Source: an uncultured Clostridia bacterium (GTDB lineage Bacteria; Bacillota; Clostridia; Christensenellales; CAG-138). Taken from it: a stretch of DNA of 64,000 nucleotides. The notes beneath the pieces were generated by a model. The model was given only the letters and a program-made list of their open reading frames with translations. It was not told the DNA's origin and did no database searches. Shown piece by piece: positions 7,723 through 38,207 of this stretch; the first letter of the stretch is position 1, and the number at the start of each line of letters is the position of its first letter. The position numbers and the translations under genes were made by a program. The stretch lies in assembly GCA_947168855.1 (NCBI GenBank), contig CAMVNO010000006.1, positions 1 to 64,000 on the forward strand, read 5' to 3'.

Positions 7723-10700
7723 TCAGTGGCTGCTGTTGCCGTTGGTCTTGTTGATGTCCGACGAATTACCATTCACGATGTTTGCGAACTTCGAGTAGCG
7801 GTAAATCGCAATCGCCATGTTAACCGCTTTCTCGTTGTTCCCGCTACGCGCCAGCAGGGTCTGCACATAGGACAGACCGGACAGGTTGCTCAGCGTGATC
7901 GTGCCGCTGTCTGTAACGATCGTGAACGTGTGCGGCGTGCTCAGCTTATGCGCCGGAATATTCGCAAGCTCGACCATGCGCTTTATGCTGCCGATCTCTT
8001 TCACTTCGGCAGAATTGTCATCGATCATTGCCGTGTATTCGGCTGTCGCTGCATTTCTCGGCGCAAACGTCACGCGGATCGTCGTATCACTGTCCAAAAG
8101 CAGTGCGTAGCCCAGGCTCTTAAGGTTGGGAGTGGAACCCTCTTCGGCTTGCGCCGTGGCCGCAAAGGCCGCAACCGCAGTCGTCGCATCCGTAAGGTCA
8201 TCGTCGGTGTAGGTCGTGTAGACCTTCTCCATCGCCGCATGATCATCCGGCACATTCCATTCGTCGCCTCTGGCTTCATCCAGATATGCCTGCACATAGT
8301 GACCGAGGTCCGCCGTCGCCTTGATCAGGTTCACGACATCATCGGAGTACAGCTCCGGATGCGCTTCATAATTGGCGTCGAACGCATCGAAGTAGTCCAT
8401 GACGCTGTATTCCTTGACAAGCGTCTGCGCTACGCCGTCCACCGTGTAGTTCAGCGTCGCGGTGATGGTATCCGCCATCTGGATCGTGCCCACATAGTAC
8501 GTGAAGCCGTAGTAGCCGTTGGTGTTCGTCGGCAGATCGGAGGAGAACGCAACCGAGCTGTCCTCGCCGTCCATGCCCTCAATCGTGAAGTCGACGCCTT
8601 CGTACACATAGCCTTCGATCTCAGGCAGACGGACGTAGAACCGTACGCCGATCTTTCCGGACAGCAGCAACGACTGCGTCATGAACGCCGGTCCTTCGCT
8701 GAAATAGACCTTGATCACAATGTCATAGTCGGGCATCGTGAAGGTCTTGTCCGTGTCGTTCCAATTGAGCGCGCCGAGCTCAATCTGCTCGAGATCGTTC
8801 TCGCCTGCGCCAGTGCGCTTGTAGATCTCGGTGTACCGGTACACATACCCCTCGTCCGGCTTCGCCGTGAGCGTGACCATCGCCGTGACGTCGGGTGCGA
8901 TCGGATCGATGCTCGCCGTACCGCCGCCGATCGCAATCACCTCCGCGGTGTGCAGGCGGGAAATATAGAAGTAACCGCCGGTGAAGAAGTCATTCCACCA
9001 GTTGCCCGCCGGACGGAAGTAGACGTTCACGTTGCCGGAATGCGGATAGTCGACGGTGTAGTTTCCGCCGTAGTCCGGATACCAGTTGAGCTTGTTCGTG
9101 CCCTCTGCCCGGACCACCTTGATCTCGGCGCCGACCGCGAGGTCTGCGACGTTCAGCAGGTACTCGCCCTCCGCCGCGGCGTTCGCCGTGAAGCGATAGG
9201 TCTCGTCGACCTCCCAGTCCGTCATGGAGCCGATCAGGTAGTAGCCGATCTCGACCGTCCTGGTGTCGGTATAGGTCTCGCCCTCGAACTCGACCGTCGC
9301 GGTGTAGACCGCCAGATCGCCGTTTTCGGTGCGGACGATGTCCGTCGTACTGCGGGTCTCGACGTGCGTGCCGTCGTTTGCGCAGGTGAAGGTCGCGGTC
9401 GCTTCTGTGAGACCGTCCCACGTCCACGCGGGCGTGCCGTAGTTATGTCCGGTCGCCGGGATCAGCGCGTTCTTGATCTCGTCGTCGTACCACGCGGAGT
9501 TGACCTGGCTGCAGCGGCAGATCACGTGCGCGACGCCCGGCTCGGTGCAGGTCGGCGCCTGCTTGATCTCGACGATCTCATAGCTGTGCGTGTGCTGCGG
9601 ACGGTGGCTCGCGTTCGTGTAAAGCGAATTGTTCGTGTTGAATGTCGTATCCGGTTCGGACAGCAGCGCCGTCTGAATCAGGTAGTAGTTCTCCATGTAG
9701 TGCGGGTCGATGATCTTGGTCGCGTAGCTCGTGATCAAGTTCATCTTGCCGAAGTCGAACCGGTCTGCAAGGTCATAGGACGTCAGGAAGCTCAAACCCG
9801 CGGAAACACCGAGGTTACCCATCGTGATCGCCAGAAGCTGCATTGCGTAGGCGGGCGTCTGGCAGCAGGAATACTTATTGATCCACCCATTGCCGTCCCG
9901 AATGCAGTAACTGTATTTCTTGGTATGCTCGTTATAATCGTTCCAGTTGCTGTCCGTAAAATAAGATTTTCTGGAACCGTCTCTGTATTCGCCGACAGTC
10001 TCGCCATTATGCGTATGATAGCTTCCTACGGTATCGCTGCTCTTGCAGTGGTAGACGTACACGTCCCACCAGCCTTCCACAACGTTGCTGCTGTTCTTTG
10101 TCATGGAGGTAAACTTGCCGACCAGCGTGGCGAGATCGTTGGAATACGAATACGACTTCGTGTTCAGAATGCTGCTGCGCTGCGAGGAAGACGCGTTGTG
10201 CGCGGCAATGGTCGCCGATCTGCCGTAACGGGTGAAGCCCCATTCGGGCATCGGCAGCATCGGAACGAAGTCGTCGCCGTTGACGAGGTTGAAGATGCAG
10301 TCGTACTTCGCCGCCGACGCCTCGGTGTTCGCCGTGGTGTTCGGAGAAGCGTAGGTATATGCGTAAACCTTGTGTCCCTCGTCGATGCAGGACGCGCTGA
10401 CGATGTTTGCGATCGCCGCGCCGCGGGAGTGACCGGAAAGCCAGAAGATCGGCGTCGCTTCGGAATCCACGAACTTGGTCATATACGCCGCAAGCGCGGT
10501 GTAGATGCGCGACGCGCACATGTCGAAGCCGCGGTGATTCGACTTGCGGTTCCAGCTGCCATTCATCTGACGCGGGTTCTTTCCATCGACGCAATCGTAA
10601 TCGTCCAGGAAGCGGTGCAGATCGCCGACGTCGAAGTTAGAGCACCATTCCTTTTCGGTGCTGTTTGTGCCGCGCACGAAGACCGTGATGATCTCATACT

Positions 10701-12282
10701 CCTTGCCGTCGTCGTCCGCCACCTTGTGATGACCGAAGAAGACCTCGGTGATGTTGTCGTCGCTGTACGCGCCGAGGCTGATATCGCTGTCGAAGTAGCC
10801 GTTCTCCAGCTGATAGTCGATGACGTTCTGCATGCCGTGCGCGCGCATGAGCGTGTCGATGCGCCGCGCGTTCGTGATCACGCTGCCGTCGCTGTCATAG
10901 AGCGTCTCGCCCGGCGTGAAGGTGATATCGTTGTCGTACGCAAGCTGCGCCGCCCAGACCGAGAAGCTTGCGATCGCCGCGTTGTAAGCCGTGTTGTCTC
11001 CGAGGAAGTCCCGGTAATCCATGGAATACGTGAGGTTGATCGTGAAGTCGCCGCTCTTGTACGTGGCGGAGAAGTTGTTGCTTCTCGGCAGCGTATCCAG
11101 ATCGTCCCGGATGCCGTCGAAGTCGGAGTCAACAAGCGTCGGGTCGGAAACGTATCCGTAAACCGCCGCGGTATAGCCGTTTCCGAGGTCGATCTCATAG
11201 CGTTCGCCGATCTCCTCGCAGTCCGGAATGCCGTCGCCGTCGGTATCGACGCTGCTTCCGGCGGTCAGCGGCGCGGAAAGCGTCACGGTGCGGAAGTCCT
11301 CAAGGAGATATGAATTCTCCGGAACGCTCTGCATGCCCGCGCCTTCAAAGCCGAGCAGCACGTTGAGCTTATGCAGATCCGCCGCATAATAGACGCCGTT
11401 TTCATCGAGCGCAACGGAGAACGTCTTGCCGTTCTTTGCCGCATCGAGACGGACCGTGCCGTTCTCGTTCATGCGGAAGATCGCGATCTCCTTTGCACCG
11501 CCGTCGACCGTGAGCTTCAGCGTAAGATCGCCGCCCTCGGGCAGACGGATCTCGACCGGCGTACCCGCAAGTGCCGGGTTGTTCAGGAAAGAATCCACGC
11601 CGTAAGGCATCGCGACGCCCTCGCGGAACAGCACGAACGGCGCGTAGCCTTCGATTGCGAAACCGCTGCCGTCAAACGACTGGAACACCGTGGAGATGTC
11701 TTCCGTCTTCAGCGGATCCGTGCCGAGGATCAGCTCGTCGCCGTCAAGGATGCCGTCGCCGTCGGTGTCGGGATTTAAGGGATCTGTGCCGCACACAAGC
11801 TCGTCGCCGTCGGAAAGACCGTCGGCGTCCGTGTCGCCCTTCAGAGGATCGGTGCCGTAAACATGCAGTTCGTCATAGTCGGAAAGCCCGTCGCCGTCGC
11901 TGTCCTTCTCGCCCGCCGCCGTGAAATACACATGCAGCTCGTCATAGTCGGAAAGCCCGTCGCCGTCGGTATCGGCGTTCTCGGGATCGGTGCCGAACGT
12001 GATTTCGTCAACGTCCGGGATGCCGTCGCCGTCGGTGTCGAGATCCGGATCGACCGGCCCGGCTTCTTCTTCCGGTTCGGCTTCTTCCGGCTCGATTTCT
12101 TCCGGTTCGGCTTCCTCTTCCGGTTCGGCTTCGGATTCTGTTTCTTCGACGGTCGCCTGCTCCTCGGGAGCGGCGGTTTCATCGGTCTCATCCGCGAACG
12201 CGGGCGCAAGTCCGGTGAATACGGTCGAAAGCAGCATCAGAGCCGCGACCAGCAGGGACAGCAATCTGTTTCGGTTTGTCAT
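7723..12282 (-). CDS. Secreted class-3 lipase-fold protein with N-terminal thrombospondin type 3 repeats
   Basis: Signal peptide MTNRNRLLSLLVAALMLLSTVFTGLAPAFA; repeated DTDGDGLSDYDELHVYGTDP; lipase nucleophile elbow WLSGHSRGAAIANIV; YYLIGSMTDWEVD module. Confidence 0.88.
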   Translation of the reverse strand: MTNRNRLLSLLVAALMLLSTVFTGLAPAFADETDETAAPEEQATVEETESEAEPEEEAEPEEIEPEEAEPEEEAGPVDPDLDTDGDGIPDVDEITFGTDPENADTDGDGLSDYDELHVYFTAAGEKDSDGDGLSDYDELHVYGTDPLKGDTDADGLSDGDELVCGTDPLNPDTDGDGILDGDELILGTDPLKTEDISTVFQSFDGSGFAIEGYAPFVLFREGVAMPYGVDSFLNNPALAGTPVEIRLPEGGDLTLKLTVDGGAKEIAIFRMNENGTVRLDAAKNGKTFSVALDENGVYYAADLHKLNVLLGFEGAGMQSVPENSYLLEDFRTVTLSAPLTAGSSVDTDGDGIPDCEEIGERYEIDLGNGYTAAVYGYVSDPTLVDSDFDGIRDDLDTLPRSNNFSATYKSGDFTINLTYSMDYRDFLGDNTAYNAAIASFSVWAAQLAYDNDITFTPGETLYDSDGSVITNARRIDTLMRAHGMQNVIDYQLENGYFDSDISLGAYSDDNITEVFFGHHKVADDDGKEYEIITVFVRGTNSTEKEWCSNFDVGDLHRFLDDYDCVDGKNPRQMNGSWNRKSNHRGFDMCASRIYTALAAYMTKFVDSEATPIFWLSGHSRGAAIANIVSASCIDEGHKVYAYTYASPNTTANTEASAAKYDCIFNLVNGDDFVPMLPMPEWGFTRYGRSATIAAHNASSSQRSSILNTKSYSYSNDLATLVGKFTSMTKNSSNVVEGWWDVYVYHCKSSDTVGSYHTHNGETVGEYRDGSRKSYFTDSNWNDYNEHTKKYSYCIRDGNGWINKYSCCQTPAYAMQLLAITMGNLGVSAGLSFLTSYDLADRFDFGKMNLITSYATKIIDPHYMENYYLIQTALLSEPDTTFNTNNSLYTNASHRPQHTHSYEIVEIKQAPTCTEPGVAHVICRCSQVNSAWYDDEIKNALIPATGHNYGTPAWTWDGLTEATATFTCANDGTHVETRSTTDIVRTENGDLAVYTATVEFEGETYTDTRTVEIGYYLIGSMTDWEVDETYRFTANAAAEGEYLLNVADLAVGAEIKVVRAEGTNKLNWYPDYGGNYTVDYPHSGNVNVYFRPAGNWWNDFFTGGYFYISRLHTAEVIAIGGGTASIDPIAPDVTAMVTLTAKPDEGYVYRYTEIYKRTGAGENDLEQIELGALNWNDTDKTFTMPDYDIVIKVYFSEGPAFMTQSLLLSGKIGVRFYVRLPEIEGYVYEGVDFTIEGMDGEDSSVAFSSDLPTNTNGYYGFTYYVGTIQMADTITATLNYTVDGVAQTLVKEYSVMDYFDAFDANYEAHPELYSDDVVNLIKATADLGHYVQAYLDEARGDEWNVPDDHAAMEKVYTTYTDDDLTDATTAVAAFAATAQAEEGSTPNLKSLGYALLLDSDTTIRVTFAPRNAATAEYTAMIDDNSAEVKEIGSIKRMVELANIPAHKLSTPHTFTIVTDSGTITLSNLSGLSYVQTLLARSGNNEKAVNMAIAIYRYSKFANIVNGNSSDINKTNGNSSH
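11690..12050 (-). repeat. TSP3-type Ca-binding repeats (DxDGDGxxDxDE)
   Basis: About five in-frame D-x-D-G-D-G-x-x-D-x-D-E units, mirrored at DNA level by tcgtcatagtcggaaagcccgtcgccgtc repeats. Confidence 0.88.
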
Positions 12283-16928: not shown

Positions 16929-17013
16929 CAATATGTAGATTGATAGTTTATTATATCCCTTTCCCTCCCGGATTGCAAGACGCAATCTGCAGTTCATGCA
17001 ATTTTGAACACCC

Positions 17014-17105
17014 CAGTCCACAGGGAACCGGACCCCCAGTCCACAGGGAACCGGACCCCCGGTCCACAGGGAACCGGACCCCCGGTTCACAAAGAACCGG
17101 GAAAT
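17014..17105. repeat. Four tandem copies of a 23-bp hairpin-forming repeat
   Basis: cagtccacagggaaccggacccc x2, cggtccacagggaaccggacccc, cggttcacaaagaaccgggaaa. Confidence 0.95.
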
Positions 17106-36345: not shown

Positions 36346-36439
36346 TTTCTCAAATATATTATAACGGACAAAAAGGGCTCCTGTCAAATAAAAAATACAC
36401 AATACCATAAGAAAGTTTCTCTGTCAAGCACTTTTTCGG

Positions 36440-36466
36440 CATTAAAAAAGCGCCGGAAAGCCGGCG
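36440..36466 (-). terminator. Terminator of the radical SAM operon
   Basis: Minus strand TTGCGCCGGCTTTCCGGCGCTTTTTT. Confidence 0.85.
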
Positions 36467-36484
36467 CAATGGTCGATCGGCGGG

Positions 36485-37573: not shown

Positions 37574-37915
37574 TCACGGTTCCGGCGTGTCTTCCGGCAC
37601 GGCGATTTTGCCCTGCAGCGCGGGCTCCTCGCGGCCGTCCGAATCGTCCGATCCGTCCATGATGATGTCGCCGTTCTCGTCGACGGCAGGCTCGCCCTCG
37701 AGACGCGGTTCCGGCGTCGGCTCGTCGATCATAGTCTCGCCGTCAAGCACGAGCTCGTCGGTCGGCGTCGGTTCCGCCATGATCCCGCCCATGATCTTCA
37801 GATCGCACCCGGTCGTGCCGGCAATCGCAACGGCAGCCGCAGTCGTGAGGATCGCGCCCTTCAGGATCTTTTTCGGGTAATTCGGCTTGTATGCGCCGAC
37901 TTTGCTTTGTTTCAT
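37574..37915 (-). CDS. Small putative RiPP precursor A (113 aa)
   Basis: MKQSKVGAYKPNYPKKILKGAILTTAAAVAIAGTTGCDLKIMGG...ELVLDGETMIDEPTPEPRLEGEPAVDENGD...PALQGKIAVPEDTPEP; RBS GGGAGGAG. Confidence 0.7.
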   Translation of the reverse strand: MKQSKVGAYKPNYPKKILKGAILTTAAAVAIAGTTGCDLKIMGGIMAEPTPTDELVLDGETMIDEPTPEPRLEGEPAVDENGDIIMDGSDDSDGREEPALQGKIAVPEDTPEP

Positions 37916-37916
37916 G

Positions 37917-38207
37917 TTATTCTCCTCCCGGCGGTTCAAGGATCGCCACGTCGCCCGAAAGCATCAGTTCCTCCGGCTCCGGCGTCGGTTCGTACGCAAC
38001 ATAGCCTTCTGTCTGCAGCTCCTCCGGCGGAACGGTCTCCTCAACGCCGGGCTCCTCCATCGGCACGATCCCGCTGGTCTGGACCTCAACGAAGCGGCAG
38101 CCCGCGGCGGTACCCATCGCAATCAGCGCGGCAGCCGCAAGCGTGACGCCCTTAAGCGCCTTTTTCGGGTATTTCGGCTGATAATCGGTAAGCTTTTGCT
38201 GTTTCAC
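37917..38207 (-). CDS. Small putative RiPP precursor B (96 aa, GTG start)
   Basis: (V)KQQKLTDYQPKYPKKALKGVTLAAAALIAMGTAAGCRFVEV...ELQTEGYVAYEPTPEPEELMLSGDVAILEPPGGE; RBS AAAGGAG; leader paralogous to peptide A. Confidence 0.68.
   Translation of the reverse strand: MKQQKLTDYQPKYPKKALKGVTLAAAALIAMGTAAGCRFVEVQTSGIVPMEEPGVEETVPPEELQTEGYVAYEPTPEPEELMLSGDVAILEPPGGE

Follow-up and report, generated by a model that had tools for sequence, protein, structure and literature searches.

The tails of two small precursors, A and B, carry repeats which look like genuine targets of a peptide-modification system that has not been described before. We read them in this way because the repeated motif is conserved across distant relatives, all of which have the same radical-SAM enzyme adjoining. 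Both precursors and the enzyme (P0003) are encoded in the window, the whole stretch of 64,000 nucleotides that was analysed. Our model is that a leader guides repeated modification at the tail motif, with Sec export and lipidation of the precursor coming afterwards; we incline to this model, though only slightly. If it is true, a conserved enzyme would have targets free of Cys and aromatic residues, and it would modify aliphatic residues or Gly on surface peptides of Clostridia from rumen and gut. Most radical-SAM peptide topologies known so far are based on Cys or aromatic bonds (PMC9062424), and Sec-type signals have been called rare among bacterial RiPP precursors (PMC12452194). Our search of papers with an open licence found nothing on a radical-SAM or RiPP system with a lipobox or with Hungatella.

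The locus and its enzyme

The genes and their parts are collected in Table 1. The region on which the original prediction was based, 37574–38120, comprises the tail and the leader of A, together with the tail of B. Both precursors lie directly upstream of the enzyme gene, with a gap of 9 nt between the stop codon of A and the start of the enzyme; B, A and the radical-SAM gene would form one small unit. The hairpin which follows them is a weak candidate for the end of this unit: three terminator-like sites were found, 2.1 are expected, and the hairpin is weak when taken alone. The neighbours are of housekeeping type, as judged by inspection of their translations: a ribose-phosphate pyrophosphokinase upstream, a CarD-like regulator and a MetK-like gene downstream. 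The same inspection found neither a transporter or peptidase nor a further tailoring enzyme adjoining the three genes. Just past the enzyme gene, before the CarD-like gene, there is a perfect 12/12 match to a promoter of the sigma-70 type (36358–36387, minus strand; TTGACA, 18 nt, TATAAT).

Table 1. Position of genes, leaders and tail motifs of the B-A-radical-SAM locus in the window
Feature	Coordinates	Strand	Observations
Terminator-like hairpin and T run directly 3' of the radical-SAM gene	36450..36467	-	7/7 GC pairs, TTTTTT
Radical-SAM/SPASM enzyme P0003, 359 aa	36485..37564	-	PF04055, 1e-16
Precursor A (P0001), 113 aa, ATG start	37574..37915	-	Orthologs at most loci of the same genus
A motif PALQGKIAV (Gly102)	37598..37624	-	
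A motif PRLEGEPAV (Gly74)	37682..37708	-	
A motif LVLDGETMI (Gly59)	37727..37753	-	
A weak motif, KIMGGIMA region (Gly43)	37775..37801	-	Missed in the original prediction
Leader of A: Y-x-P-x-YP, Lys/Arg, hydrophobic stretch, GC lipobox	37805..37915	-	Leader profile E=7.7e-17
Precursor B (P0002), 96 aa, GTG start	37917..38207	-	ORF and orthologous loci
B motif LMLSGDVAI (Gly85)	37941..37967	-	
B motif LQTEGYVAY (Gly68)	37992..38018	-	
B motif VQTSGIVPM (Gly46)	38058..38084	-	Missed in the original prediction
Leader of B, anatomy as in A	38097..38207	-	Leader profile E=1.6e-17

The enzyme stays under the cut-off of every curated family. Its best NCBIfam match is NF047865 (PapB), with 194.3 bits for a cut-off of 340; TIGR03942 (anSME) gives 78.2 bits for a cut-off of 349.45. 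By its Cys pattern and predicted fold it is of the SPASM radical-SAM type: the CxxxCxxC Cys are found in 78 of 79 distinct homologs, and each of the seven SPASM Cys in 77–79 of them. The AF2 model (pLDDT 90.5) has CteB (TM 0.83), anSME (TM 0.80) and ChlB as its closest solved folds, and the structurally solved TigE (PDB 8vpo) is among its structural and sequence matches. An eighth Cys of the SPASM region, C234, is present in 46/79 homologs and is missing in g87, a genus of another bacterial family (f48); an extra Cys, C307, is found in 75/79 and could stand in for it. With C234 missing in g87, we dropped the argument that thioether chemistry is excluded by full ligation of an auxiliary cluster. 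In the enzyme tree the short clade of the window's own family (support 100/99) and the g87 clade (100/100) are separate groups; the tree gives no firm order of branching among own-family short, g87 and large groups, so that the motif may have been inherited or may have arisen in parallel.

Leaders, relatives and large precursors

The precursors show the features of RiPP precursors: a small ORF beside a maturase, a conserved leader and a variable core which bears the motif. In Pfam, NCBIfam and PHROG no family reaches its cut-off with A, B or the large precursors described below. In the own family the order is K-x-x-x-L-x-x-Y-x-P-x-YP-K-K, a hydrophobic stretch, GC and an acidic tail which is nearly free of Cys; 24/24 aligned leaders keep both YP and the lipobox Cys unchanged. 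All parts of a lipoprotein signal are present in the short precursors: an n-region with Lys/Arg, a hydrophobic stretch and the lipobox Cys. A lipobox of the PS51257 type is found in 50/53 of them in the own family and in 46/46 in g87. The Cys lies at position 33–43, which in the own family is later than usual. The genome of the window (G000; contigs C2, C4 and C12) has three copies of Lgt and one of LspA. Judging from these signals, the short precursors are likely lipidated; we do not go beyond likely because only 9/53 of the own family (37/46 in g87) have L/V/I at −3, as a strict lipobox requires.

Orthologs of the enzyme are found in the genus of the window and in related genera of its own family; those in named MAGs come from the foregut of sheep, goat, cattle, reindeer and water buffalo. 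Farther relatives occur in two Hungatella species, H. hathewayi and H. effluvii, and in uncultured Lachnospiraceae. Among 392 genomes sampled from the class, 16, of nine genera, have the enzyme and eight have a large precursor, all eight being enzyme carriers. In g87 the enzyme is present in 45/78 genomes; its precursors have Y-x-x-P-x-Y leaders and tails rich in Thr, Glu and Asp. One or two short precursors are found at nearly every locus of the own family with enough upstream sequence.

Leader and enzyme go together. The leader profile was run against 103 genomes of the own family (match threshold E < 1e-9) and matches 41, with the enzyme in 40 of these. Both are absent from 59 genomes, and four are discordant (Fisher p ~8e-24). 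Three discordant genomes have only the enzyme: in G059 the contig ends 281 nt upstream, while G015 and G101 have a precursor of the large type. The single genome with only the leader, G076, is 62% complete. The pair is patchy even inside a genus, and is therefore gained and lost as a unit.

The distant enzymes, including those of Hungatella, pair with proteins of 220–320 aa. Their leader contains P-x-YP...P-x-RW and is followed by a hydrophobic stretch and Cys, an anatomy common to short and large precursors. After the leader the large ones commonly have HGxGxGxxGC[VMD]SVxxPxFLSEEEA and then a C-terminal L[RK]xQVRDFxxWL...QG[VI][IL]; Gly-Cys-x-[SA]-[VI] is conserved among them. The AF2 model of a large Hungatella precursor, made from 6 sequences, has pLDDT 36. 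Locus L085 has a hybrid precursor, in which the leader is followed by a repeat-like tail (PPLDGDMLPPETTRGMQTEEPLPLLGRYAPPEAVIGMQTEEP) and the tail by the large domain. MAFFT brings LAGDAYV (L093) close to the HGxG segment, in an uncertain register. The idea that the Gly motifs of large and short precursors are homologous is suggestive only.

Some of these loci have peculiarities of their own. At L085 (G101, contig C18) the enzyme is a second copy, beside a copy of the large type (L083), and an unrelated lipoprotein gene lies between enzyme and hybrid precursor. In L091, L092, L093, L094 and L095 the large-type precursors occur as tandem pairs for each enzyme gene (in three places in G277), which parallels A and B. 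In the enzyme relative of L095 (G278) the SPASM Cys are degenerate (237 S, 255 A, 305 Y), and the two precursors beside it have HHGG instead of the Gly-Cys motif.

The Gly-centred tail motif

The tail units quoted in the original prediction are all present, and the motif is real. The pattern given for it, L-x(1-2)-G-x-x-[AMV]-[IVY], had to be modified: there is exactly one residue between Gly and the L/T/I/Y at −2 (LQTEG is read as T-E-G), V/I dominate at +2 and +4, a second hydrophobic residue or Pro stands at −4, and two sites had been missed. The refined pattern is [LVP]-x-[LTIY]-x-G-x-[VI]-x-[VI], followed by Asp, Glu or Pro, with aliphatic positions which alternate around Gly.

We counted all other residues relative to Gly, which is invariant in the position table by construction because it is the anchor; a de novo motif search without anchor also puts Gly at the centre. 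Position −2 is L/T/I/Y, position −4 is L/V/P, and D/E/P occur at +5 to +7. V/I at +2 or +4 is found in 80–85% of the sites, V alone in 52–77%; the Gly59 site of A has Thr and Ile in these positions. Besides the anchor Gly, no residue is strictly kept in the motif sites.

The pattern is maintained over large distances. A Gly-centred profile trained on tails from two genera, that of the window and a sister genus, finds 31 sites in two further genera (1.7 in shuffled tails, 0/2000 shuffles) and 13 sites in g87 (0.89 in shuffled tails, 0/2000 shuffles). Training and test genera are homologous in the first comparison; the g87 test and the de novo search in each clade are more independent. Profile and regex counts are well over composition-preserving shuffles in three separate clades. 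The de novo search recovers one alternating pattern in all four clades, each taken alone, with log-likelihoods of 759 in g1 (~100 when shuffled) and 773 in g87 (~114 when shuffled). Agreement between clades, column by column, is clearly higher than in column-permuted controls for 4/6 pairs and marginally higher for 2/6.

Around the motif the tails vary. There are 0–5 copies per tail, and the distance from Gly to Gly is mostly 14–17 in the own family, with a wide range; a distance of 6 is common in g87. This is the behaviour for which the original prediction proposed to search among homologs: a conserved motif, with varying spacer length and copy number. The composition of the spacers varies as well. 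A conservation no greater than that of an acidic, Pro-rich composition, which had been named as the adverse result, is not what profile, shuffles and de novo search gave. The suggestion that Pro/Glu spacers act as rigid linkers does not hold in general: Pro amounts to 14–17% of the spacers in the own family and to 5.7% in g87, where they are rich in Thr, Glu and Asp. Pro-rich spacers are thus lineage-specific.

The tails evolve rapidly under weak selection, and they keep the pattern rather than fixed residues. In orthologous tails the dN/dS of motif columns is 0.42 in A and 0.56 in B, only slightly less than the 0.50 and 0.59 of the other tail columns. Indels avoid the motif: the gap fraction is 0.05 in the motif columns of A and 0.12 in those of B, 0.33 and 0.59 in the rest of each tail.

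Possible chemistry and alternatives

Given this sequence conservation, it is plausible that the motifs are modification sites. The original prediction named C-C or C-O crosslinks, epimerisation and a backbone modification as candidate chemistries, and our observations favour none of these over the others. The N-terminal region would have a double role: the enzyme would recognise it as a leader, and it would also be the Sec/lipoprotein signal. The enzyme would bind the leader in the cytoplasm and act repeatedly on the alternating motif centred on Gly; the precursor would then be exported by Sec, lipidated at Cys and cleaved, so that a modified tail is tethered at the surface. Export along the Sec and lipoprotein route would explain the lack of an adjacent transporter or peptidase.

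The composition of the tails restricts the chemistry. The tail of A has no Cys, F, W, Y or H; the tail of B has no Cys, and its few aromatic residues are out of register with the motif. Because neither type of residue is present, Cys-thioethers and aromatic cyclophanes are impossible on the tail of A; for B we consider a cyclophane unlikely. As a best guess only, we favour a modification of aliphatic residues near Gly over a crosslink based on Cys or aromatic residues. It might be a small change repeated on the aliphatic residues around Gly: epimerisation, or a loss of 2 Da by desaturation or cyclopropanation. More broadly, there may exist a class of radical-SAM-modified lipoproteins, with the lipoprotein signal as leader, a repeated Cys-independent change on Gly-centred motifs resembling beta-strands, surface-anchored tails and, in other lineages, larger lipoproteins with the same leader as substrates; this wider proposal is a tentative one, somewhat less likely than not.

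Weak selection on the tail and the lack of any strictly kept residue besides Gly count against modification at the motif. So does the conservation of Tyr and Pro in the leader, which exceeds that of the tail; the enzyme could therefore have its target elsewhere. In the main rival the motifs would be unmodified binding or folding elements of a surface lipoprotein, amphipathic beta-strand units, while the enzyme modifies the leader Tyr/Pro or the juxtamembrane segment. Hydrophobic and polar residues do alternate in the motif as in a beta-strand, conservation among the short precursors is highest at the leader Tyr/Pro and Cys, and the LxLDG segment of the large precursors lies inside an apparently folded domain. 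On the other hand, the short precursors have little besides leader and motif tail, with repeats only in the tail, and the leader of a lipoprotein is expected to be lost by cleavage at Cys. We regard this structural reading as rather unlikely, although it deserves some weight.

A crosslink inside the motif is less probable still. By analogy with PapB, a C-C or C-O bond would join Asp/Glu near Gly to an aliphatic residue. PapB is the nearest curated family and attacks the carbon beside the carboxylate, the beta-carbon of Asp or the gamma-carbon of Glu (PMC9413430). Here Asp/Glu stands at +1 in 45–54% of the sites and is frequent at +5, but without a strictly fixed position: anywhere from −1 to +3 it is found in 61–67% of the sites in three of four clades and in 87% in g87. 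Furthermore, PapB requires a Cys partner, and there is none here.

Could A and B be ordinary lipoproteins with low-complexity repeat tails, beside a radical-SAM gene by chance? Tails rich in Pro, Glu and Thr are common among surface proteins and purifying selection on these ones is weak, but the unit co-occurs in four genera and again in a different bacterial family, gained and lost together in a patchy way, and the motif is far over composition shuffles; chance is a very improbable explanation. Cys-dependent thioethers of the ranthipeptide or sactipeptide type are the least probable of all, and for the tails of A and B the sequence already refutes them: in spite of PapB being the nearest family and of the Gly-Cys-x-[SA]-[VI] of the large relatives, tail Cys amounts to 0–1% in every short-type clade, and only large-type precursors could undergo such chemistry. 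The original prediction, which noted that no Cys follows GC in A and B, had called thioethers unlikely; this is right for A, B and the short clades, and it does not extend to the whole enzyme family because the distant large relatives keep Gly-Cys.

Leader-guided modification at the tail motif remains our preferred model, and we have compared it with known systems. We place the system outside the PapB, Tvg and anSME families because their defining features, as far as tested, are not found in it. The anSME enzymes have a comparable fold and length, and their substrates are proteins with export signals; they carry out a Cys/Ser oxidation at a single site of an enzyme, not on repeats. PapB (NF047865, freyrasin/ranthipeptide) is also a SPASM enzyme which acts many times on a repeat-bearing precursor with frequent acidic residues. 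However, PapA has CX3D motifs, whereas the precursors studied here have tails without Cys and a lipoprotein-type signal; a CX3D or thioether reading by analogy with PapB was rejected for A and B.

For a repeated motif free of Cys, TvgB, of the poly-cyclopropylglycine system with which we group the solved TigE, is the closest characterised parallel, the comparison being made by description. It is a peptide-modifying radical-SAM enzyme with several sites in each precursor TvgA, and it converts Val to cyclopropylglycine in repeated TVGG, a Gly/Val motif without Cys (PMC9062424). Val is fixed in those repeats and it is not fixed here, which argues against an identical reaction and weakens a strict conversion of Val as in TvgB. 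The tvg clusters also contain oxidase and transporter/peptidase genes, absent at this locus.

CteB, the SCIFF maturase (PDB 5wgg/5why), is the best PDB match of P0003 by sequence as well as by fold. It differs by an N-terminal RRE and a Cys-rich substrate, and the open site of its auxiliary cluster takes a substrate Cys (PMC8172795). Residue 3–4 of P0003 aligns to residue 99–100 of CteB, so that P0003 is without the N-terminal part of CteB. A Sec signal in the place of an ordinary leader is found in the precursors of bufferins and in other MNIO-modified precursors, and some Buf2 bufferins have lipoprotein signals (PMC12452194); they belong with a different enzyme superfamily, MNIO, and a chemistry based on Cys.

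The window also contains other repeats. In the intergenic region 17011–17100 there is a 23-bp unit, CCCCAGTCCACAGGGAACCGGAC, in four direct copies with a 94% match; by eye, each copy has inverted arms of the GGTTCCC type. A secreted protein of 1519 aa (7723–12282, minus strand) has DxDGDGLxD repeats of the calcium-binding type and a lipase-like GHSRG motif, both recognised by eye. The tandem repeats at 7–689 and 1821–1966, with units of 234 bp and 33/54 bp, are probably pieces of repeat-rich surface proteins.
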